Below, piece by piece: positions 6,014-43,949 of a DNA stretch of 64,000 bases; the stretch's first letter is position 1, and each line of letters begins with the position of its first letter. The position numbers were made by a program, and so were the translations under genes. Below the pieces are notes generated by a model that saw only the letters and a list, made by a program, of their open reading frames with translations, was not told where the DNA came from and made no database searches. This DNA is from Flavobacterium johnsoniae UW101 (GTDB taxonomy: Bacteria; Bacteroidota; Bacteroidia; Flavobacteriales; Flavobacteriaceae). The stretch covers positions 5,704,001 through 5,768,000 of the forward strand of contig NC_009441.1 of the NCBI RefSeq assembly GCF_000016645.1. Direction: 5' to 3'.

Positions 6014-6210
6014 AATTTCATGATTTGATTTGCGCCTACTCTTTTGCTTTTCGGCTTCCGCATTTGATTGAGGTAAAATTAGAATAAGCCAAATTTGGTT
6101 TCATAAGGTAAACTACTGTTTTTGAAAGGGGAAAAAGCCTGTTTTTTTTCTTCATTAATTATACTCTAATTGACATATAAGAATAGCTTAATGATATCTT
6201 AAGGCAGTTT

Positions 6211-12804: not shown

Positions 12805-13350
12805 CTAATTTTTAAGGCACCAATGCATAATCTTAGCGATGTTTTTGGCATCGTCAATTCCGCGGTGATGTGTTCCTTCAAGCGGAATATTCAATAATTG
12901 CAGGGCACCGTTCATTCCGGTGGATCTTTTTAGACCAAACTTTTCAGCAAAATGCTCTTTTACGTTAATATGTTCCTCTCCCATTGGATATGGAATACCA
13001 AACGATTTGCATTGTTTTGTAAGCATATTTAAGTCGTACTGACCGTAACTTGCCCAAGTATATAAATCGGGATTGTATTCGTCGATTAAGAGATTTACAG
13101 CTTCCTCAAAAGAAACACCGTTTTTATCTAATAAATCCTGAGTAATGGTGGTTAATTCTGTACAAAACGGACTCACGGTCGAGCGCTGGGGCTTTATTAA
13201 AATTCCCTTGTTCTTTGTAATTTCACCTGTTTGTGAATCTAAAACCGCTAATCCAATTTCGATAATTTCATTTTGCTGGCCTTTCGGGACCACGCCCTGC
13301 CAGCATGTTGCTTCTAAATCGATAATAATAATTTTATCTGTTGTTTTCAT
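12805..13350 (-). CDS. 3'-5' exonuclease, DEDDh family (Eri1/KapD-like)
   Basis: 181 residues. The DEDDh exonuclease signature is complete: DLEATCW at the N-terminus (first Asp and Glu), YDLN in the middle and HRGIDDA near the C-terminus. The spacing and the EATCW form resemble the Eri1/KapD RNA-exonuclease branch more than DnaQ proofreading subunits, so a structured-RNA or DNA 3' end is the likely substrate (inference). A TTG 36 nt upstream would add 12 residues, but it lies in a dispersed repeat. The ATG at 13350, preceded by an A/T-rich leader, is preferred. It has its own terminator. Confidence 0.85.
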   Translation of the reverse strand: MKTTDKIIIIDLEATCWQGVVPKGQQNEIIEIGLAVLDSQTGEITKNKGILIKPQRSTVSPFCTELTTITQDLLDKNGVSFEEAVNLLIDEYNPDLYTWASYGQYDLNMLTKQCKSFGIPYPMGEEHINVKEHFAEKFGLKRSTGMNGALQLLNIPLEGTHHRGIDDAKNIAKIMHWCLKN

Positions 13351-13378
13351 TTTTAAATTTTTAATAATTGTTTTTTTT

Positions 13379-13493
13379 AACCGCAAGGAACGCTAAGATA
13401 GTTTCTCACAGATCTGGCAGATTTTTTATAATCCTTTTAATCTTTATAATCTGTGGATAAAAATTTTGTGTCTTAGCGTCTTTGTGGCAAACC
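13379..13493. repeat. Dispersed intergenic repeat copy
   Basis: It contains 'ctcacagatctggcagatttttt', 'ataatctgtgg' and 'gtgtcttagcgtctttgtgg', the same modules as at 1577-1726, 32560-32656 and 42802-42902. No gene is seen in it. Confidence 0.6.
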
Positions 13494-14351: not shown

Positions 14352-14388
14352 CAAATATTACAATCGTTCTACGCAATTATTTTGCGTA
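14352..14388 (-). promoter_or_regulatory. Dyad promoter (copy A of the RtcB-island type)
   Basis: A perfect inverted repeat TACGCAA-TTATT-TTGCGTA (14370-14388), exactly 10 nt upstream (minus strand) of the -7-like box AATATTTG (14359-14352). The spacing is identical to that at 32350-32386, 35473-35509 and 35562-35598. Confidence 0.6.
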
Positions 14389-14456
14389 TTTATTTTAAGA
14401 TTCCAGGTTAGGTAAAAAACTTTTTTCTTTTAATCTCTAACCTTTTGCCCTAAAAC

Positions 14457-25058: not shown

Positions 25059-27977
25059 TTAAAATCCGTATTTTTCTTCTCGCTTTTTAAAAGCTTCTTT
25101 TCCTCCTTCAACGATATCCGCAATATGCTCCCTAATTCCCATACTTCTTAAAATATCTGTTTCTTCTAATATTTTCTCAAAAGTATTTTCAATTGAACCA
25201 TTTATCAAATCAAATTTAAAATTACTGGAACTATCAATCTCATTCTGTCCTTTCTGATTTGCCACAATAACATTTTCAGCATCTGAATTAACAACTATAT
25301 TTGCGTTATGAGTAACAATGATAATTTGTCTTTCCAATTTTTTATTCTTTAAATAAGAAACTAAATCCAAAGTTATCGATCTATTATCTAAATTATCTTC
25401 TGGTTGATCAATCAAAATAGGCGCTTTTGATTTACTTAAACCAATTATTAACATTAAGATCACAAAACTCGCTTTTCCTGTAGACATCTCTCCTAATTTG
25501 TCCTCTTTATAAGTTATTTTCCAATAATCAAAGAAATAATCATCCAGCAATTCTTTTACGGCTTGCATTTTACCAAACTTTGCTAAAATAAAATAATCAC
25601 CATTAATTATGTCAATAAATATTTTTTCAATTTCGTTAATAATTTCTTCAAAATTTGTTGGTGAAGTAGCTTTATGAGTTTCCTTTAAAATTGTATAATT
25701 ATTATATGACGCTTTTCTACCGTCACTAACTTCATACAAATTTTTAACAAATTTTGGAAAATTAAACTGTGCTATACCATCTATTTTTAATCCGTCACCT
25801 TCTAGTTCTAAAGTTCTATGCTTAAGTTCGTTTATAATCTTATTATATTCTTCAAAGTTTTCTCTAAATAGTTTAAATATATCTTGTCTGCAATTTTCAC
25901 TGAGCGATTTTTTATCCAATATCGCTTTATTTAATAAATCAATATCAGCCAATAGTTTTTTATCATCTATAATTGATTGATTTAAAACTTCAATCTGCTT
26001 TTTCAATTTTTCATTTTGCTGATATGGCTCTAATTCTTTTGTTAAAGTTGCTTTTTCTCCATTTATAGAAATTAAATTCTTTTTTAAAAGATTTTCATTT
26101 TTAAAAGACCTCTTTCCTGCTTCATCAGTCTGAATTTCAATCTCTTCAAATATTTTTGTGATATCTAAATAAATTTTATCAATAAATGATAATTTATCGA
26201 CATAATATTGTTTAACACTTTCTGTTTTAATTTTTTCTACAAATTCTTTTTTCTTCTCTAAAATATCATTTGAAAGCTTTTTTAAATCAGATAAACCAGC
26301 ATTAATATTGTTAAAATCATCGTTAAAATTATTTTTCTGAATAGTATTAAACTCTAACTTCGTTTGAATTTCTTTATACTTTAAAATTTCTTGATCACTT
26401 AAACCTGATTCTTTATTTAATTTTTCGACACTCTCAGTATTCGATTTAATGTTTTTTTCAAGAACTTCTTTATTTGACTTGGTTTTCAATTCAGATTCAG
26501 TTTTTGCTATTTCTTCTAAAAGTTCAAAATATTTACTTAGCAAATCATCTCTCTCTTTATCATTTTGCTTTACATTCCTAATAAACTGATCATATTTGTC
26601 TTTTGAATCTTGATCTTCTTTAATTAAATCACGCACTAATTTATTTAAAGATTTTCCTTTTTTATTTATATCCGGTTCGGCTAATTTTACCAAATAATTT
26701 TGTGGAATATATTTAATATCTGGAATTACGGAATTCTCGTCCAAACTGCGAAACATTTCTTGTGAAATTCCTGAATTCGTTGTAATTCTAAAATTAAAGT
26801 CCGAATCAATAGATCTCAAATTGTATTTTTCTTCTAAATTTTCATTTTTCAAAATAGTGTCATCAACTAATAATGTTTTTGCCATAGAATAAAGAAAAAT
26901 TGATTTACCTGAAGATTTACCACCTATTATAACATTTAAATTTGGATTCAAATAAATTTCTTTATTGGTAAAGACTTTATTCTCTGATATAAATTGAACC
27001 TTATTGATTATTACTTTATCTTCCTTAAAATCCGGTTTATCATTTTGTATTTTAACTCTTTGTTCAGGTTCGTAACATATTTGCCTTAATCCTTCAAAAG
27101 TTAAATCTGATTTTACCCATGTAAATCTACTAAATAAAGTATCTTCGCTATGAGAATCACATCCGATTATACATGGTTTTAAAGATCCTGTATGACTTAT
27201 TACTTCTTGTTCTGAAGTTTTTTTTCCTAAAAAATATTCCTTATCAGAAGGAGCATTGGAGAATACAATATTGGTTAATTTATAAATTGATTTAACAGTT
27301 CCAAGAAGACTTCCTCCTTCTTTTTCAAATTCTTCATAATAATCTTTTAACCCCGAAACTCCATCATTCGATTTACTACTAACTGCAATAAGCGAATTAT
27401 CTCTAATTAATTTGTTTGATTCCAATAAAGATTTGATACTCCCAAACTCTATATTATAATTATCAATCCCAAACTTATAAAGTTGATCATCATTTAATAA
27501 AGGATTTATATGCTTAGCATAATCCTTTATACCTTGATAATTCATTAAATAATTCTCAACATTACTAATCTTGTTAAAAAATTCATTATTCAAATTTTCA
27601 ACAATCTTTGGATCAAATATAAAATGTAAGTTTATAAACTTTCCTTTTTTTGTAGTTGGGGAAATTCGAAGTTCTACATTTGGGAAAATAAATATCTTTC
27701 GGATAAAATTTATTTCATCCTCAGAAAAAAGTTTTTCCTCCCAATCTTCATCTTCTTTAGTATGTATTTCTTTGACATAATTAATTGCATCTAAATATCT
27801 ATCTATTGAAAAATAATCAGTTATTCCTATAGCCTCAATTTTATCTTCATATGCCTTTTTAAAAAATGTACAAAAAAAATCATCCATACTTCCAGAAGTA
27901 AACTGATCATTTTTATTTGTTCCCTTAGTATGAACATGAAAATTCCATTTTCTCCATTCTGAACCTCTATTACTCAT
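25059..27977 (-). CDS. TrlF-like PHP-domain / SMC-type ATPase, probable defence protein
   Basis: 972 residues. The N-terminal PHP-type phosphoesterase region has HVH (14-16), GITDYFS (51-57) and the late metal-site motif GCDSHSE (272-278). The Walker A motif GGKSSGKS is at 352-359. Long charged coiled coils fill about 430-700. Near the C-terminus lie a signature-like MSTGKASFVILML, a Walker B/D-loop PILIDQPEDNLDNR and an H-loop THNANIVV. This architecture is the TrlF-type AAA-like ATPase, found in genomic islands and considered an anti-phage or mobile-element function. The gene is clearly more A/T-rich than the metabolic genes around it, consistent with transfer. Confidence 0.8.
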   Translation of the reverse strand: MSNRGSEWRKWNFHVHTKGTNKNDQFTSGSMDDFFCTFFKKAYEDKIEAIGITDYFSIDRYLDAINYVKEIHTKEDEDWEEKLFSEDEINFIRKIFIFPNVELRISPTTKKGKFINLHFIFDPKIVENLNNEFFNKISNVENYLMNYQGIKDYAKHINPLLNDDQLYKFGIDNYNIEFGSIKSLLESNKLIRDNSLIAVSSKSNDGVSGLKDYYEEFEKEGGSLLGTVKSIYKLTNIVFSNAPSDKEYFLGKKTSEQEVISHTGSLKPCIIGCDSHSEDTLFSRFTWVKSDLTFEGLRQICYEPEQRVKIQNDKPDFKEDKVIINKVQFISENKVFTNKEIYLNPNLNVIIGGKSSGKSIFLYSMAKTLLVDDTILKNENLEEKYNLRSIDSDFNFRITTNSGISQEMFRSLDENSVIPDIKYIPQNYLVKLAEPDINKKGKSLNKLVRDLIKEDQDSKDKYDQFIRNVKQNDKERDDLLSKYFELLEEIAKTESELKTKSNKEVLEKNIKSNTESVEKLNKESGLSDQEILKYKEIQTKLEFNTIQKNNFNDDFNNINAGLSDLKKLSNDILEKKKEFVEKIKTESVKQYYVDKLSFIDKIYLDITKIFEEIEIQTDEAGKRSFKNENLLKKNLISINGEKATLTKELEPYQQNEKLKKQIEVLNQSIIDDKKLLADIDLLNKAILDKKSLSENCRQDIFKLFRENFEEYNKIINELKHRTLELEGDGLKIDGIAQFNFPKFVKNLYEVSDGRKASYNNYTILKETHKATSPTNFEEIINEIEKIFIDIINGDYFILAKFGKMQAVKELLDDYFFDYWKITYKEDKLGEMSTGKASFVILMLIIGLSKSKAPILIDQPEDNLDNRSITLDLVSYLKNKKLERQIIIVTHNANIVVNSDAENVIVANQKGQNEIDSSSNFKFDLINGSIENTFEKILEETDILRSMGIREHIADIVEGGKEAFKKREEKYGF

Positions 27978-30274: not shown

Positions 30275-31696
30275 TTAGTCTTCCTTGCTTCCGTCATCAG
30301 CCATTCTAACCAGTTTCGGCGTGAATTTGGCAACAACATCGACTAACTCTTTCTGCGCTTCCATAACCTGATTGATATCTTTATACGCCATTGGAGCTTC
30401 GTCCAGACCTGCTCCAATAAGCGTAACGCCATGATCTCTCAGTATCGATTTCATTTCGGTTTGTGTAATGTTTTTTATGGCTTGGGTTCTGCTCATTTGT
30501 CTTCCTGCTCCATGCGAAGCCGAATTAATGGCATTCTCCTCACCTTTTCCTCTCACCAAAAATCCCGGTGCGGTCATACTTCCCGGAATGATTCCCATAA
30601 CGCCTTTTCCGGCTGGGGTTGCTCCTTTTCTATGTACGATCACTTCTTCGCCGTTCCAGATTTCTTTCCAGGCAAAATTATGATGGTTTTCGACTTTGGC
30701 TAAAATCGTCGCACCCAAAGCGCGTTCCATTTTGTTATGGATAATCTCATGACAAGCCGAAGCGTAATCTCCCGCCAAATTCATCGCAAGCCAGTATTCT
30801 TGTCCTAATTGCGAGTTCATATCCAGATACGCCAAGTTTTTGGCAACTTCTGGAAGTTTACATTCGTCTTTGGCTATTTTAGTATAATGTCCGGCAATGG
30901 TTGCTCCCATTCCGCGTGAACCAGAATGCGTTAACAAAGCGACGTATTTTCCTTTTGGGATATTCAAGACCGCATCGTCTTTCGCAAATTCCATGATTCC
31001 GAATTCCACAAAGTGATTCCCGCCACCCGAAGATCCTAATTGCGACCAGGCTTTATCTTTCAAATTCTTCACAAACGGATTCATATTAAACGTTTCGTTC
31101 TCTAAAACCGCATGATCTGATTTGTACTGACCGTGAAATCCGTGACCCGCTCCAAAAATGGAATTCGTAATTAATTCTTTTTTGAACTTCGCTTCGTTTT
31201 CAAAGTAAAAATCCTCTGGAATATCATAAACCGACAACGCCATTCTACATCCAATATCAACTCCAACACCATACGGAATAATGGCATTTTTTGTGGCTAA
31301 AACTCCGCCAATTGGTAATCCGTAACCTTGGTGTGCGTCTGGCATTAAAGCTCCCGCAACGGTAACTGGCAGTTTCATGGCCACTTCCATTTGTTTTCTG
31401 GCTCCGTCTTCGATATGATCCAATCCGTAAGCCGAATACGCATTCGGATTCTGATTTAAAGCAATGAAATCTTCTGGTTTTTCATTCGATTTTTCGATTA
31501 AAGCCACAGCCAGTTTGCTGAAGATTTTATCGTCTATATAGTTTTCTGGAGTTTCTAAGACGTTTTTGAAATTGGCAATCATTTCGTCTCTTGTGAATCC
31601 GTTTCTTTTGCTGTTTATTTTTAAGGCAATTCCAATTATTTTTCCTTCTGGGAATCCTAATTCTAATATATCTGTACCGTTTATTTGTGTTTTCAT
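30275..31696 (-). CDS. rtcB: RNA-splicing/repair ligase RtcB
   Basis: 473 residues. Mn-binding and catalytic residues are all present: D120/H122 (MPDAHQGYG), C150 (GVDIGCRM), H228 (GGNHFVEFG), H257 (HSGSRGMG), the ENHHNF region near 338, and His395 in SHGAGR, the position guanylylated in the family. RtcB joins 2',3'-cyclic-phosphate (or 3'-phosphate) and 5'-OH RNA ends, rejoining cleaved tRNAs. Here it is the last protein of a leftward island with a HEPN-motif protein, a RING/TerD-like protein and tRNA-like RNAs. No RtcA cyclase or sigma-54 regulator RtcR is visible nearby. Confidence 0.95.
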   Translation of the reverse strand: MKTQINGTDILELGFPEGKIIGIALKINSKRNGFTRDEMIANFKNVLETPENYIDDKIFSKLAVALIEKSNEKPEDFIALNQNPNAYSAYGLDHIEDGARKQMEVAMKLPVTVAGALMPDAHQGYGLPIGGVLATKNAIIPYGVGVDIGCRMALSVYDIPEDFYFENEAKFKKELITNSIFGAGHGFHGQYKSDHAVLENETFNMNPFVKNLKDKAWSQLGSSGGGNHFVEFGIMEFAKDDAVLNIPKGKYVALLTHSGSRGMGATIAGHYTKIAKDECKLPEVAKNLAYLDMNSQLGQEYWLAMNLAGDYASACHEIIHNKMERALGATILAKVENHHNFAWKEIWNGEEVIVHRKGATPAGKGVMGIIPGSMTAPGFLVRGKGEENAINSASHGAGRQMSRTQAIKNITQTEMKSILRDHGVTLIGAGLDEAPMAYKDINQVMEAQKELVDVVAKFTPKLVRMADDGSKED

Positions 31697-31740: not shown

Positions 31741-31771
31741 CAAAGGTTCTTTGCTGCTGCGCAGTTATTTT
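31741..31771 (-). promoter_or_regulatory. Degenerate dyad promoter upstream of rtcB (copy F)
   Basis: One half of the island dyad (TGCGCAGTTATTTT, 31758-31771) lies 9-10 nt upstream of an AACCTTTG box (31748-31741) on the minus strand. The other dyad half is lost. The leader to rtcB would be about 40 nt. Confidence 0.4.
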
Positions 31772-32330
31772 AAAATCGACTACCATTTTTTTGTTGTTGT
31801 AATAAAATCTCATGAATTCTTCTAATTTCAGCAATAATTGGCTCCATTTCATATTCTACGTTGAAAATTTTAAAAATATCCTTATCATAAAAATATGCTC
31901 TGAAAAATGTTCTATTATCATCTACAAAAGTTAATGGCCCCACATACTTTCGCGTTACTTTCCATGTAGAAAATTCTTTTAAAAAATCATCTAATTTTTC
32001 ATCAAAATGTTCGATGTGATTCCGCATGTCTCGATTTTTTAAAACATTTGAATCATTAATTTCATAAACTTCGCGTAGTTTTTTCCCTCTAATTTTATAA
32101 TGTACTTTTTTGCTTGAAGGCCAAAAAAATCTGGAAACTCCTCCCGCATTAAGAATAATATTCTCAAATAAATCTAGAATCATATCGTCATTTTTACAAT
32201 GATAGTTCCTCTTCATCCAAAATTTATTTAATGATTTAGCATCATTTAAAACTGAATGTGTTTTCTTTAATAAAGATTCAATATAGAAAGCTTGATCAAA
32301 AGGATGGATTTCAAATTCTAAATTTCTCAT
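31770..32330 (-). CDS. HEPN-motif protein, possible RNase
   Basis: 186 residues from the ATG at 32330; a TTG 9 nt upstream is also in frame. It is mostly helical. Residues 103-108 read RNHIEH within KNRDMRNHIEHFDEK. That is the RNxxxH form of the Rx4-6H signature of HEPN ribonucleases, at the start of a helix as expected. HEPN proteins include anticodon nucleases and many toxins, but also non-catalytic forms. It lies 73 nt upstream of rtcB under its own dyad promoter. A cleave-and-reseal partnership is an inference. Confidence 0.6.
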   Translation of the reverse strand: MRNLEFEIHPFDQAFYIESLLKKTHSVLNDAKSLNKFWMKRNYHCKNDDMILDLFENIILNAGGVSRFFWPSSKKVHYKIRGKKLREVYEINDSNVLKNRDMRNHIEHFDEKLDDFLKEFSTWKVTRKYVGPLTFVDDNRTFFRAYFYDKDIFKIFNVEYEMEPIIAEIRRIHEILLQQQKNGSRF

Positions 32331-32349
32331 ATCTCTCAATTTATTTTTT

Positions 32350-32386
32350 CAAAGATTCAAATACTACTGCGCAGTTATTTTGCGTA
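32350..32386 (-). promoter_or_regulatory. Dyad promoter of the HEPN-motif gene (copy C)
   Basis: TGCGCAG-TTATT-TTGCGTA (32368-32386) lies exactly 10 nt upstream (minus strand) of the box AATCTTTG (32357-32350). The leader to the ATG at 32330 is about 15 nt. Confidence 0.6.
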
Positions 32387-32408
32387 GTTTTTTTTATTTC
32401 TCATTTTA

Positions 32409-32733: not shown

Positions 32734-34974
32734 TTAATCAACCAATAATTGTGTAACAACCGCTGGGTTCATTGCCCATTGCGCTGTGTAAACCTCATCG
32801 GCAATTTCATTTTCGGTGATTGTTAAACCTTGAGCTTCCGCTTTTAGCTGTAACAAACTACCAATATTCAATTTGCTGTTTAGTTTTGCCAACAATGCCT
32901 GAACGCCTTTGAAATCCAATCCACCAACTACCTGACCTCCGAAAGTCATCTCTAACCAAACGATTTCTCTTTTGGCTACATCCAACACTCCAAAAACCAA
33001 ACCTTTGGCAATATTCTGCGTTACACGAACCTGATGATCTACACACGACGGATCGTATGCTACACCTGTTTTCTCCGAAATTTTCATCGGATATTTGCTG
33101 TTCATCCAACCTACGACTAAATTTGGCGTAATACTTCCGTTGCTGTACGCGTTGCAAGTAAAAGTTACAAATTTTGCTTTGGCTTTTGCCAATTCGTCGA
33201 TGTTGATATTGATATATTCGGCAGTTCCAATTTTATTCGGAATACTTCTGATATCACCGCTATGCTGACAACCTGTAGTCGTCAATCGGCTGAAAGAGCA
33301 CATATCTAAGCGATCTTCGTATGCAATCTGACAGCTCAAATCCATATCTAAATGCTGCGCTGGCAAATCTTTACCCCACTGCATAAACAATCGCACTTCG
33401 TTTCCTTCAACTGGGAAACGTGTTCCCATTAAAGCAACTGGTAAATCCTGAACTGTATCGCTTCGATCTCCTATAGAAACCGGAATGTTAAACAATTGCG
33501 GATCGATATAGATTGTTTTATTGGTATTAGCAATTTTCGCAAATCGCTTTTTCATGGCCAAAAGACACAATTCTTCGATTTGATTTTTCATTGCTTCCAA
33601 CTGAAAATCTTCGTACAACTTCAATAAAGCGTTTGCTTCAATTCTTTTGTTTGTTCCACCCAAAGGTTTCACACTTCTCTGCATGTTTTTATCAAAGTAA
33701 TTTTGAGCATACATGTTTAAAGTAAACACCAACCGAGCCGGAACTTTATCGATGATTTCTTCAAAATGAGCAACAGTTTCCTCTGCTCCAAACCATAGCA
33801 TGTTCGAAAATAACGAACGTGCAAATAATCCCGGACGTTGTTTTAATAATCCAAATGTTTTATCGGCATCAAATTTCAATCTTGACGAATCTACTTTGCT
33901 TTGCCAAACATCATACACTTGGTTGTAGAAAACATCCATTAAAAAGTTCAATTTCTCAAACCCTTTTCTTTTGCTGTATTCTGCCAAACGAAGCGCGCGG
34001 ATAAAACGAACCCACATTCCTCTTTTTGGGTGCATGGTTTCGCACATCGCCTCCACTTCCATATTCATGTTGTTCAACCAATTTGCGACCATTAAACATT
34101 CTTTTCGGGAATATTTTAGTTTCAAATCTTTTTGAGATGCAATTCTGGCCTGAACGCTTGTATCTAAAACATTATGGAAATGCTGCGCATTTTTTGATGT
34201 TCTTTTGATAATCGTTTTTGGCTCAATAATTTGAAGCATTCCTGTGTTTTTATACCACAAGTATCGTAAGATATCTGTTGGCGTTTTCAAAAACTGAGAC
34301 GCTTCGTCTTCTTTACCATTTTCGATCAAAAGATCGATTACGAGCATTAAAGTTTCCTTCATTGCCACTTCTGTTTTTGGCAAAGGCAAATATTGCATTG
34401 CCATTTTTAAACTATCTACCTGAGTAGCGTCTAAAGCGGTTTTAGATTGCAATAACGATATATAGAAATCATTTAAATCTTTTTCTGTCCACAATTCAAG
34501 CACTTTCATTTTGCTTCCTTGTCCGATGTTTTCCAGTTTTCCAAATTCAAACGGAGTTCCGCAGAACGGACAACCATTGTATCTTTCTAACGGAAAAGTA
34601 TTATCTGGGATAATATGGCCGCATTGTAAAGTTGTTCCGTTTTTAGTTTTAAAAACGTTTCCGAAATACGTGATAATATGATCTATAACAGATTCATTGG
34701 TTGGAACGTTCCATTCTTTTACCAATGGCGTCCAGTTTTTATCTGTTCCTAAAACTTCTCTCAAAACTTCTAAAACCTCGATTTTATAAGTTGGGCTCAC
34801 GTTGTTTAAAGCGTGAAGCAAAGATTCAGAAAATGTAAATCCAAGTTTAGAAACATTGGCTAAAAAAACTGAAGTTGTTCCTGATAAATTTTTAATATCA
34901 TTCGTAATCATTTCTGATGGAATGAAAATAGCATTTTGACGTAAACTGATTTTTAATAATTCTTTTGTTTTCAT
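32734..34974 (-). CDS. RING-type zinc finger / TerD-like protein (MXAN_6230/SCO0854-like)
   Basis: 746 residues. A four-ligand zinc motif C118/H120...C135/C138 (QCGHIIP...GCPFCG) resembles a prokaryotic RING/zinc-ribbon. The middle (about 200-500) is helical. The C-terminal about 200 residues match the TerD pattern: LDMDLSCQIAYED, CQHSGDIR, YININIDEL, FVTFTCNAYSNG and LVFGVLDV...IVWLEM. TerD domains bind calcium and occur in stress and phage-related systems. The 490-nt leader carries the interrupted tRNA and the repeat array, so the RNA elements and this protein appear to be one transcription unit. The function is unknown. Confidence 0.75.
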   Translation of the reverse strand: MKTKELLKISLRQNAIFIPSEMITNDIKNLSGTTSVFLANVSKLGFTFSESLLHALNNVSPTYKIEVLEVLREVLGTDKNWTPLVKEWNVPTNESVIDHIITYFGNVFKTKNGTTLQCGHIIPDNTFPLERYNGCPFCGTPFEFGKLENIGQGSKMKVLELWTEKDLNDFYISLLQSKTALDATQVDSLKMAMQYLPLPKTEVAMKETLMLVIDLLIENGKEDEASQFLKTPTDILRYLWYKNTGMLQIIEPKTIIKRTSKNAQHFHNVLDTSVQARIASQKDLKLKYSRKECLMVANWLNNMNMEVEAMCETMHPKRGMWVRFIRALRLAEYSKRKGFEKLNFLMDVFYNQVYDVWQSKVDSSRLKFDADKTFGLLKQRPGLFARSLFSNMLWFGAEETVAHFEEIIDKVPARLVFTLNMYAQNYFDKNMQRSVKPLGGTNKRIEANALLKLYEDFQLEAMKNQIEELCLLAMKKRFAKIANTNKTIYIDPQLFNIPVSIGDRSDTVQDLPVALMGTRFPVEGNEVRLFMQWGKDLPAQHLDMDLSCQIAYEDRLDMCSFSRLTTTGCQHSGDIRSIPNKIGTAEYININIDELAKAKAKFVTFTCNAYSNGSITPNLVVGWMNSKYPMKISEKTGVAYDPSCVDHQVRVTQNIAKGLVFGVLDVAKREIVWLEMTFGGQVVGGLDFKGVQALLAKLNSKLNIGSLLQLKAEAQGLTITENEIADEVYTAQWAMNPAVVTQLLVD

Positions 34975-35155
34975 TTTTTTAATTTTTAAAATTTAGATAA
35001 TTGTGCTTCTGAGTTCTACCTAAAAGATTTTGAAGTAAGAAACACTTGACCTGAAATTGGAGTGTAATGAATTAACTAAGCTAAAATGGAGCGGGCTACC
35101 CCGAAAGAAGTAAGTTAATCTTGACCCTCGTTTTTTTATTAATGATAATTTTAAA

Positions 35156-35202
35156 ACTTAATAACCAGCAACTTCCTTTCGGAAGTTAGGAGTCGAACCT
35201 AA
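35156..35202 (-). ncRNA. Second tRNA-like element, T-arm followed by closed acceptor-like hairpin
   Basis: Minus strand in order: T-arm TTAGG-TTCGACT-CCTAA (35202-35186) with a consensus T-loop, then the hairpin AACTTCC-GAAA-GGAAGTT (35187-35170), overlapping the T-arm by AA. Next is a possible D-arm GCT-GGTTATTA-AGT (35169-35156). This is the order expected for a circularly permuted tRNA whose acceptor ends are joined by a GAAA loop. No complete anticodon arm is present. It is bounded by copies of the 20-nt motif. Confidence 0.4.
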
Positions 35203-35230
35203 GAAGTAAGTTTTAATTGACCATTAATTG

Positions 35231-35348
35231 TGAAGCAGGTGGGATTCGAACCCACGACCTGGACGTTAAAAGCGTAAGAAGTAAATTTTGATTGACCTTT
35301 GATTGATAATTTCAAAACTACCTGCTCTATCCGCTGAGCTACTGCTTC
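35231..35348 (-). tRNA. tRNA-Lys(UUU)-like gene interrupted by a 45-nt insert in the anticodon stem
   Basis: Exon 1 is 35348-35321 (acceptor GAAGCAG, D-arm GCTC-AGCGGATA-GAGC, A26, G27, G28). The insert is 35320-35276. Exon 2 is 35275-35231 (A29-C30-G31, loop CTTTTAA with anticodon TTT, CGTCC, variable AGGTC, T-arm GTGGG-TTCGAAT-CCCAC, acceptor CTGCTTC, A73). Joined, they give exactly 73 nt with all stems perfect, including GGACG/CGTCC across the junction. U33, G18G19, A14, A21 and G15-C48 are all present. CCA is not encoded. The insert contains one GGTCAA-N7-TTACTTC copy. Confidence 0.75.
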
Positions 35349-35472
35349 GTATATAATTGAATAAAAAGGTAATGGTGTAAGTGTGTACATTGGAAAGTGT
35401 TTTCGAAGTAACTCAAACTTGACCTGTTTTATTCTTTTTTTATTTCTATGAACGTTTGTTTTTATTTCTGAA

Positions 35473-35509
35473 CAAAGATTTCAAAACTAGTACGCAGTTA
35501 TTTTGCGTA
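35473..35509 (-). promoter_or_regulatory. Dyad promoter of the tRNA-like array, proximal (copy D)
   Basis: TACGCAG-TTATT-TTGCGTA (35491-35509) lies exactly 10 nt upstream (minus strand) of AATCTTTG (35480-35473). It would start transcription near 35469, reading through the whole tRNA-like array into the RING/TerD gene. Confidence 0.6.
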
Positions 35510-35561
35510 GTGAAATTTTTGTTTTCATTTTTTAGAAATACTATTTGTTTTATTTCTTGAA

Positions 35562-35598
35562 CAAAGATTTCAAAACCACTACGCAATTATTTTGCGCA
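35562..35598 (-). promoter_or_regulatory. Dyad promoter of the tRNA-like array, distal (copy E)
   Basis: TACGCAA-TTATT-TTGCGCA (35580-35598) lies exactly 10 nt upstream of AATCTTTG (35569-35562). It is a tandem duplicate of copy D, 89 bp further up, with conserved flanks. Confidence 0.6.
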
Positions 35599-35644
35599 GT
35601 AAAAAAGAATTTTAAATTTGAGTGAAAATTAATTTAAAAAAAGC

Positions 35645-35884: not shown

Positions 35885-36240
35885 ATAAAAATTGAAGGTG
35901 TCGCTCCGCTGGAGCTTTTTAACCGTTGGATATAAATCGGCTATAAATATTTTGCTATAAATATCTAACTCCTCCGGAGCTTGGTAATACGTTGAATAAT
36001 TGGCAATAAATATTTTGCTATAAATATCTAACTCCTCCGGAGCTTGGTAATACGTTGAATAATTGGCAATAAATATTTTGCTATAAATATCTAACTCCTC
36101 CGGAGCTTGGTAATACGTTGAATAATTGGCAATAAATATTTTGCTATAAATATCTAACTCCTCCGGAGCTTGGTAATACGTTGAATAATTGGCAATAAAT
36201 ATTTTGCTATAAATATTTAACTCCTCCGAAGCTTTTTACT
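35885..36240. repeat. Tandem 63-bp repeats, right arm in opposite orientation
   Basis: The CTCCTCCGGAGC core recurs every 63 bp at about 35969, 36032, 36095, 36158 and 36221, with near-identical intervening sequence. A related CGCTCCGCTGGAGC unit lies at about 35911. The orientation is inverted relative to the left arm, with the turning point near 35885. There are no spacers, so it is not CRISPR. Confidence 0.9.
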
Positions 36241-42599: not shown

Positions 42600-42693
42600 A
42601 TATGTCGAATCAAATTTGTGCGTAAAAGTATATGATTTTTTAACATAAAAAAATATTAAAAAACCGATTTAAAATCAATATGTTAAATTTTAG

Positions 42694-42712
42694 TACGCAA
42701 CACTATTGCGTA
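42694..42712. promoter_or_regulatory. Perfect dyad of the RtcB-island type between the adhesin and WYL genes (copy B)
   Basis: TACGCAA-CACTA-TTGCGTA: arms identical to copy A and the same 5-nt spacer length, but with a different spacer sequence. At the fixed 10-nt distance leftward there is only a weak box (ACATATTG), so it may act differently here. It lies 95 bp from the adhesin start and 200 bp from the WYL regulator start. Confidence 0.5.
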
Positions 42713-42801
42713 TTAAGATTAAATGAAATATTTTTAATGAAAAATGAATAGTAATCATATGTAAATCACGCAAAGACATCAAATAGTAAAGTTTTTATTT
42801 A

Positions 42802-42911: not shown

Positions 42912-43949
42912 ATGTCACAAAACAAAAACGCCTTAATACGATACAAAACAATCGATAAATGCCTCCAGAATAAATACAGGCAATGGTCTCTCGAAGATTT
43001 AATCGAAGAATGCTCTGAAGCTTTATTTGAATATGAAGGAAGACAAAACCCAATAAGTAAGCGAACCATTCAGATGGATATTCAGCTGATGCGAAGTGAA
43101 AAACTGGGTTATAATGCGCCAATCGTAGTTTACGATAAAAAGTATTATAAATATGAAGACGAAGATTTTTCGATAACCGATATTCCGCTGACGGAAACCG
43201 ATATGAATGTTTTGACAGAAACGGTTTCTATGCTGAAACAGTTTAAAGATTTCTCTTTATTTAATGATGTATCAGATATTCTACAGCGATTGGAAGATAA
43301 AATCTACGCCGAAAAATCGCATACTAAACCCGTTATTTATCTGGATAAAAATGATAAACTAAAAGGACTCCATTATCTGGACGAAATCTATCAGGCAATT
43401 ATCAAAAAAATGGTTCTCATTATTACGTATAAATCTTTTAAATCTGCTGAAGAAAGCAAATTCCACTTTCATCCTTTCATATTGAAGGAATTCAATAACC
43501 GCTGGTTTTTAATTGGAAAGAAGAAAGCCTCACAGCCGATTACCAATTTAGCATTGGACAGAATCATTTCTATTGATTACGATTTTAATCATCCTTATTT
43601 AGAAGAAGATTTTGATGCTGATAATTTTTATAAAGATGTAATTGGTGTTACGGTGAATTCAGGATTGAATGCAAGACGAATTGAGTTATGGGTCGATGCT
43701 TCAAATGCGCCTTATGTACTTACAAAACCTCTGCATACTTCTCAGCGGTTAATTAAACAAAACAAAGACGGAAGTGTCATTATACACATATATGTAATCC
43801 CAAATTACGAGATGGAAAGGCTTTTATTAGGTTTTGGAAGCTGTTTGGAGATTTTAAAGCCAGAAGGTCTGAGAAATCGTATGAAAAAGATTCTCCAGGA
43901 TGCGATTTCACGCTACGATTCTGAAAAACCAACTGAAATAAATGCATAA
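42912..43949 (+). CDS. WYL-domain transcriptional regulator
   Basis: 345 residues. The N-terminal winged-helix-like region (about 5-80, ALIRYKTIDKCLQNK and SKRTIQMDIQLMRSE) binds DNA. The WYL domain covers about 155-235, with the RWFLIGKK and RIISIDYD segments, and a WCX-like C-terminal extension follows. WYL regulators sense nucleic-acid or nucleotide ligands in known cases (for example PafBC responds to single-stranded DNA). The gene is alone, but the region upstream holds a perfect dyad of the type found in the RtcB-island promoters. It is therefore a candidate regulator of that island (inference). Confidence 0.88.
   Translation: MSQNKNALIRYKTIDKCLQNKYRQWSLEDLIEECSEALFEYEGRQNPISKRTIQMDIQLMRSEKLGYNAPIVVYDKKYYKYEDEDFSITDIPLTETDMNVLTETVSMLKQFKDFSLFNDVSDILQRLEDKIYAEKSHTKPVIYLDKNDKLKGLHYLDEIYQAIIKKMVLIITYKSFKSAEESKFHFHPFILKEFNNRWFLIGKKKASQPITNLALDRIISIDYDFNHPYLEEDFDADNFYKDVIGVTVNSGLNARRIELWVDASNAPYVLTKPLHTSQRLIKQNKDGSVIIHIYVIPNYEMERLLLGFGSCLEILKPEGLRNRMKKILQDAISRYDSEKPTEINA

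Follow-up and report, generated by a model that had tools for sequence, protein, structure and literature searches.

The window analysed here, a stretch of 64,000 nucleotides from Flavobacterium johnsoniae UW101, carries on its minus strand an array of short repeats directly upstream of an ORF of 746 aa, which is followed by a 189-aa ORF and then by rtcB (Table 1). One of the repeats lies inside a tRNA-like RNA. The original prediction had placed an RtcB ligase gene beside an interrupted tRNA; the gene was recovered as a PF01139 match, but it lies 3.5 kb downstream of the tRNA-like RNA, behind the 746-aa and 189-aa ORFs. The 746-aa protein matched the MXAN_6230/SCO0854 RING family (NF041916) over nearly its full length (E 5e-36), a weak match of 124 bits compared to a cut-off of 600, and neither MXAN_6230 nor SCO0854 was met in the part of the matching papers that our literature search covered. 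Elsewhere in the window, a TrlF-family AAA-like ATPase is encoded at 25059–27977 (NF045780, E 4e-184) and a DUF805b RNA was matched at 6033–6064 (43.5 bits).

Table 1. Features of the repeat array, its operon and its candidate regulatory sites, in window coordinates.
Feature	Position	Strand	Remark
tRNA-like RNA (unit R2), hairpin module in anticodon arm	35231–35348	−	RF00005 match by cmscan
Permuted module, AGUUUUGA / AAUUAUC / loop / GGUCAA / UCAAAAUU / UACUUC	35278–35319	−	8/8 pairs
Direct module R1	35368–35424	−	7/8 pairs; outer stem 35354–35436 around it
Direct module R3	35144–35222	−	8/8 pairs
Direct module R4	35063–35126	−	8/8 pairs
Direct module R5	34996–35051	−	8/8 pairs; immediately upstream of 746-aa ORF
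746-aa protein: zinc/RING-like N part, helical repeats, TerD-like C part	32734–34974	−	
189-aa ORF, between 746-aa ORF and rtcB	31770–32339	−	No family above cut-off
rtcB, RNA ligase	30275–31696	−	PF01139, E 1.1e-82
WYL/WCX regulator	42912–43949	+	PF13280 and PF25583
Palindrome TACGCA-N7-TGCGTA, upstream of array	35488–35512		
Palindrome, second copy upstream of array	35577–35601		
Palindrome upstream of 189-aa ORF and rtcB	32365–32389		
Palindrome before WYL gene	42691–42715		
Palindrome upstream of ORF neighbouring DEDDh-type exonuclease	14367–14391		

The tRNA-like RNA was recognized by cmscan of the window with its insert in place, scoring 48.2 bits compared to a gathering score of 29, and was not reported by ARAGORN at default settings. 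As originally described, its acceptor, D and T arms are perfect, with GAAGCAG/CTGCTTC pairing at 7/7 positions, a D stem of 4/4 pairs and an intact T stem. Excision of 45 nt (35276–35320) left 73 nt that ARAGORN called as tRNA-Lys(ttt), with the anticodon stem GGACG/CGTCC around the loop CTTTTAA. The original observation of an interrupted tRNA-like sequence is thus confirmed. None of 200 shuffles folded as well as the 118-nt RNA (minimum free energy z-score −2.71), and our own covariance model of this unit (R2), built partly from the same sequence, gave it 132.7 bits. Both RNAalifold and the minimum-free-energy structure paired the ends of the RNA as an acceptor stem and placed the module in the anticodon arm. 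ARAGORN scans of 30 stretches covering the genome's 47 further tRNA-model matches gave 47 ordinary host tRNAs, including three tRNA-Lys(ttt) with the acceptor GACTCGA/TCGGGTC. The acceptor GAAGCAG/CTGCTTC was absent from all 47, the closest of which was 73% identical. Since the host has three tRNA-Lys(ttt) and none carries its acceptor, the tRNA-like RNA is hardly needed for decoding and is no copy of a host tRNA. The anticodon was also not constant among 35 orthologous copies, reading UUU in 17, UCU in seven and other triplets in 11 at the best cut.

The insert contains a motif whose recurrence the original prediction had overlooked. GGUCAA-N7-UUACUUC occurs in five exact copies on the minus strand from 35424 to 35032, within 400 bp, and the copy inside the insert spans 35278–35297. 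With up to two mismatches allowed, nine matches were found in the 64 kb compared to 2.0 expected, a number reached by none of 100 shuffles. The motif belongs to a hairpin module, GGU-CAA-N8-UACUUC ... N8'-NAUU-ACC, composed of a GGU/ACC stem, a CAA/NAUU internal loop and an 8-bp stem. In the four direct copies, the eight bases after GGTCAA pair at seven or eight positions with a downstream octamer, followed by NAUUAYC or similar. In the tRNA-like RNA the partner strand lies upstream instead (AGTTTTGA AATTATC, 8/8 pairs), and the module is circularly permuted, so that its outside becomes the upper stem and a short loop is closed by the GGU/AUC pairing. This permuted hairpin was present in the minimum-free-energy structure of the 118-nt RNA and was also predicted by RNAalifold on 28 sequences. 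The loops of the direct modules have contents of their own: that of R3 contains a T-arm-like stretch, accompanied in relatives by D-loop-like letters (by eye), the T arms of R2 and R3 forming a direct repeat of 76%, and that of R4 bears a small hairpin, of the GGGGAAACCC type in relatives (by eye). The array was found again in relatives, where the stem pairs of R4 are AATTAGCT/AGCTAATT, GATTAACT/AGTTAATC and GATGAACT/AGTTCATC and those of R5 are GTGTTTCT/AGAAACAC, GTGCTTCT/AGAAGCAC and GTACTTCT/AGAAGTAC. A tandem repeat with a period of ~63 bp, including CTCCTCCGGAGCTTGGTAATACG, was read separately at 35950–36200.

The helices of the module were assessed by covariation. Alignment of 24 of 74 short direct modules, picked to be varied among those with at least 6/8 pairs, gave 83.7% paired cells compared to 62.9% in shuffles, with 18 of 22 pairs changed on both sides and a covariation score of 0.546 compared to 0.187 in shuffled and at most 0.187 in slid alignments; none of 500 shuffles reached this score. 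RNAalifold, unaided, recovered the GGU/ACC and 8-bp stems of the direct modules and did not recover the outer stem around them. For the tRNA-like RNA with its module, 28 of the 35 copies were aligned, the other seven being very similar and the 28 themselves sharing much ancestry. Here 97.1% of cells were paired compared to 92.5% in shuffles and 14 of 27 pairs changed on both sides, while the number of further pair types was not clearly above shuffles (reached by 33 of 500); RNAalifold, again unaided, returned the acceptor, D and T stems and the permuted module. Modules entered these alignments by a pairing threshold, and their helices were then also found by RNAalifold.

Across genomes, the array accompanies the gene for the 746-aa protein. 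The protein was found in 20 of 150 genomes of the genus, and all 20 loci carry the motif in two to seven copies by pattern. The R2 model scored at least 99 bits in 19 of these 20 genomes, which had helped to build it, and in none of the other 130, the next-best rows among genus genomes reaching at most 55.7 bits and mostly having ordinary tRNA length; because only 23 first-look candidates per genome were scored, a weak tRNA-like copy could be missed. A later search added nine loci, and a script found the tRNA-like RNA with its module in 27 of the resulting 29; it returned 37 rows, of which two lacking the module strand were dropped and 35 kept, and missed at least one copy (the first cassette of L026). 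The protein and direct modules are present in the two remaining loci, L020 and L029, where the scan found no tRNA-like RNA. In L020 (G076) the protein is 56% identical and only two direct modules are present, rtcB follows the protein gene by eye as it does in the window, and a Band-7 gene lies beside the operon. Distant relatives of the protein were encoded on a Microscilla contig (L048), with six tRNA-likes and one direct module, and on two Bacteroidales contigs (L049 and L050, the latter with only 392 bases of upstream sequence), with one direct module each before the gene, in which GGC/GCC replaces GGU/ACC.

Following up weak R2 matches in a Flavobacteriaceae genus and in another genus of the order uncovered tRNA-likes of 108–121 nt whose anticodon arm holds a different hairpin. 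Eight candidates were fetched, of which L131–L133 did not belong; the loci of this second variant are L127–L130, L134 and L135–L156. In L127 the tRNA-like RNA is flanked on one side by an RtcB gene (PF01139, E 2e-34, for the part of it in L107) and on the other by the gene for a ~590-aa protein; a WYL regulator, to which that of the window is 51% identical, is also present. By eye, L129 and L134 have a similar layout with rtcB, RlaP and WYL genes, RlaP nucleotidyltransferases being encoded in both L127 and L129, and no rtcB was found in the fetched stretch of the Flavobacteriaceae loci L128 and L130. The ~590-aa protein had no Pfam match, but comparing profiles linked it to the 746-aa family (probability 94.8%, E 5e-8, 533 columns). 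It was matched in 23 of 296 genomes of the order, in one of them (G313) weakly, and a tRNA-like RNA lies upstream of it in 17 of the 22 loci examined, the other five having none by the script's criteria. Its leader contains direct copies of GRY-AAA-N4GU-UCC ... AC-N4'-C-RYY, the same hairpin that occurs in the tRNA-like RNA. In an alignment of 16 of the 55 direct copies, which had been required to form at least 5/6 pairs, both sides had changed at 8 of 12 pairs (reached by 10 of 500 shuffles), the covariation score exceeded all 500 shuffles, and the count of further pair types was below the shuffle mean (reached by 484 of 500); RNAalifold found both stems. In L154 and L156, as in R3 of the window, a T arm can be made out by eye within one direct loop. 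The hairpin thus changes with the protein while the layout stays, the clearest sequence-level hint that the protein may bind the hairpin. Near the second-variant locus L128, 15 tRNA-clan matches are clustered (L128:5549–7288), one of them to the tRNA-Sec model.

Five copies of the palindrome TACGCA-N7-TGCGTA lie in the window, compared to 0.06 matches expected at up to two mismatches, and a fuller pattern occurs at five places in the 6.1-Mb genome. In a scan allowing up to two half-site mismatches and run without a chance control, the palindrome also preceded rtcB and RlaP in L129 and L134, lay ahead of the tRNA-likes in L048, L128 and L130, and was present in every one of L002–L019. No copy was found in L127 or L049, and only a poor one, inside the gene, in L020. 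The palindromes may mark a small regulon of the WYL protein encoded in the window, which is the probable regulator and may bind them. A DEDDh-type exonuclease encoded at 12805–13386 is 63% identical to one adjoining the second-variant locus L128.

We consider it likely that the insert is a permanent hairpin module rather than an intron, and that the tRNA-shaped RNA is the partner of an RNA-repair protein. The organization that we regard as probable is a ribonucleoprotein in which a leader or operon RNA carries five copies of one putative protein-binding hairpin, one of which, in circularly permuted form, makes up part of the anticodon arm of a complete tRNA mimic, with the insert retained unspliced in the mature RNA. 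The 746-aa RING-like/helical/TerD-like protein would bind the module, and the tRNA body would bring it to tRNA-handling or tRNA-damaging enzymes, or bait them with the anticodon loop, in the vicinity of RtcB. Through the copy at the start of its gene (R5), the protein may control its own synthesis, and the WYL regulator would turn the genes on via the palindromes. Sequence comparison itself shows the modules, the covariation of their stems, the permuted copy, the link with the 746-aa gene across genomes and a parallel system with another hairpin. A pure scaffold would not need an anticodon loop with UUU or UCU in 24 of 35 copies (best cut), an observation that speaks against the proposed organization, as does the lack of a tRNA-like RNA in our scan of L020 and L029.

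The original prediction had entertained a processed bacterial tRNA intron; on this reading a nuclease would excise the 45 nt and RtcB would join the exons into tRNA-Lys. The joined exons are indeed a tRNA by ARAGORN, an RtcB gene is nearby, and, when the cut in each copy could be chosen freely among 99 positions, with three lengths of variable loop, and only the best one was kept, 28 of the 35 copies regained a 5-bp anticodon stem, U33 and the D stem, with the same cut relative to the module in 21 of 29 genus copies. This reading fits poorly, however, with an insert that is a permuted copy of a hairpin occurring four times outside the tRNA and whose helix covaries in relatives. Seven copies failed the test and the free choice of cut inflates the rest; U33 was not regained in the second cassettes of L011, L012 and L026, and a few tRNA-like copies retain no usual anticodon loop. 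In other copies the best cut falls at varying distances from the module, so that splicing would need moving splice sites with a fixed module; most copies have the module ahead of the anticodon loop, the order being reversed in L048:4748, where CTTCCAA forms a full loop ahead of the module (by eye). The lower stem covaries in the 21 same-cut genus copies (ACG/CGT, ACA/TGT), which does not decide the matter because the same three pairs form in the unexcised RNA, as a third helix. The host's three tRNA-Lys(ttt), none with a shared acceptor stem, are a further point against an intron. RtcB is the ligase of archaeal and eukaryotic tRNA introns, and the likeness to these lies in an anticodon-arm insert with an RtcB gene nearby. 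The usual site of those introns is given, in the portion of the source consulted, as one base 3' of the anticodon (PMC4090602), whereas here the cut falls between positions 28 and 29, and further copies of the inserted module occur outside the tRNA. A group I or other known intron was rejected (45 nt, no Rfam match by cmscan). We judge processing as an intron very unlikely; a permuted insertion in a tRNA can mimic an intron, and such RNAs escape a common tRNA finder at default settings.

Still less credible is an inactivated tRNA pseudogene, which we rejected on grounds of conservation: ARAGORN saw no tRNA here, but the tRNA body is kept with compensatory changes across genera, the tRNA-like RNA with its module recurs in nearly all genus loci, and the comparison of orthologous loci that had been proposed as a check found the exons conserved, which speaks against a dead tRNA. 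Alternatively, the repeats could serve in the leader as iterons, DNA sites for a regulator, the tRNA-like shape being incidental. A constant 20-bp motif with fixed inner spacing upstream of an ORF would suit such sites, but the partner strands covary as RNA stems, the one permuted copy suits RNA folding rather than a direct DNA site, and the separate palindrome fits a regulator better, making this reading highly improbable. The remaining alternative concerns the function of the ribonucleoprotein and not its structure. As a bait or sentinel, the RNA would present a varying anticodon loop for anticodon nucleases to cut; its cleavage, or its resealing by RtcB, would signal attack or soak up the nuclease. 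The loops are kept but varied, GUC being readable in L014 and UCC on the 5' side in L048:4748 (both by eye), RtcB adjoins, joined by RlaP in the second variant, and YrlA has been suggested as a competitor of an anticodon nuclease by Hughes et al. 2020 (PMC7790460). The same paper reports no YrlA fragments, no nuclease is known at the locus, and the usual anticodon loop is missing from the three second cassettes lacking U33, so that a bait function seems possible yet rather doubtful. The tie to RNA repair and the idea of a decoy or reporter in the original prediction are consistent with the evidence.

The closest known system to the proposed ribonucleoprotein is YrlA, encoded as rsr-yrlBA-rtcBA. 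In the portions of the literature consulted, YrlA is described as a noncoding RNA with D-, T- and acceptor-like domains and a protein-holding stem, encoded with RtcB in some bacteria, which holds Rsr/Ro60 via a stem in which its 5' and 3' ends pair (PMC8394870, PMC7790460). The tRNA-like D, T and acceptor domain is present here as well, again in what would be a tRNA mimic tied to a protein; the window RNA, as read from its sequence, differs from those descriptions in that its ends form an acceptor stem and the module is placed in the anticodon arm. The presumed 746-aa partner also differs in showing no TROVE similarity by profile (probability 0.1% for its family against 11 Bacteroidota TROVE proteins, both alignments being shallow). 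No TROVE match was found in its own genome, and a whole-model VIA-align of the protein listed no TROVE chain in 50 rows, which were filled by the TerD domain and so say nothing about TROVE. Among six cmscan matches up to E 10 there was no Rfam Y RNA family, and only tRNA passed its gathering score. Our best reading is that the window system may work like a YrlA Y RNA without a recognisable TROVE/Ro60 partner. Burroughs and Aravind reportedly announced in 2016 a 'novel tRNA-like molecule' in RNA-repair systems with SPFH/Band-7 and RtcB, and the RNA class may for this reason be partly known; the points of resemblance would be a tRNA-like RNA in RNA repair and, in L020, a Band-7 gene. Titles and abstract openings in the literature searched gave no account of a permuted anticodon-arm module, of the direct repeats or of two hairpin codes. 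For the questions of what bacterial RtcB acts on and what tRNA-like RNAs do in repair operons, the locus is a compact test case: it offers two separate protein/hairpin pairs of equal layout, tRNA mimics whose anticodon loops can vary, and a hairpin copy where the protein gene begins.

Relatives of the 746-aa protein with 21–26% identity are also encoded on viral contigs, at 68 IMG/VR loci (L173–L240). Scanned with Rfam, nine of 18 such loci contained tRNA matches, several in clusters. Near the phage relative, tRNA-likes of 117–144 nt at L203:190–446 and L229:1242–1385 have TTCCTTC in their anticodon region. This motif was found flanked by signs of D and T arms in six of the 68 phage loci, in six distinct sequences, three of which resemble by eye an ordinary tRNA plus a second piece; 34 letter permutations used as controls averaged 0.44, the best reaching 6 and 4 and both overlapping the same letters. 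These tRNA-likes are possibly a third hairpin code, an unproven lead. Tentatively, and with less conviction than for the locus in the window, we suggest a new, widespread class of RNA-repair ribonucleoproteins in bacteria and large phages, in which helical/TerD-like proteins would each have a cognate hairpin code, permuted in the anticodon arm of bait or sensor tRNA mimics and direct in the leader for feedback, with two codes seen and a possible third in phages. A GOLLD RNA with a tRNA match inside it (L183:5408–5874, 184.7 bits) lies near one phage relative of the 746-aa protein.
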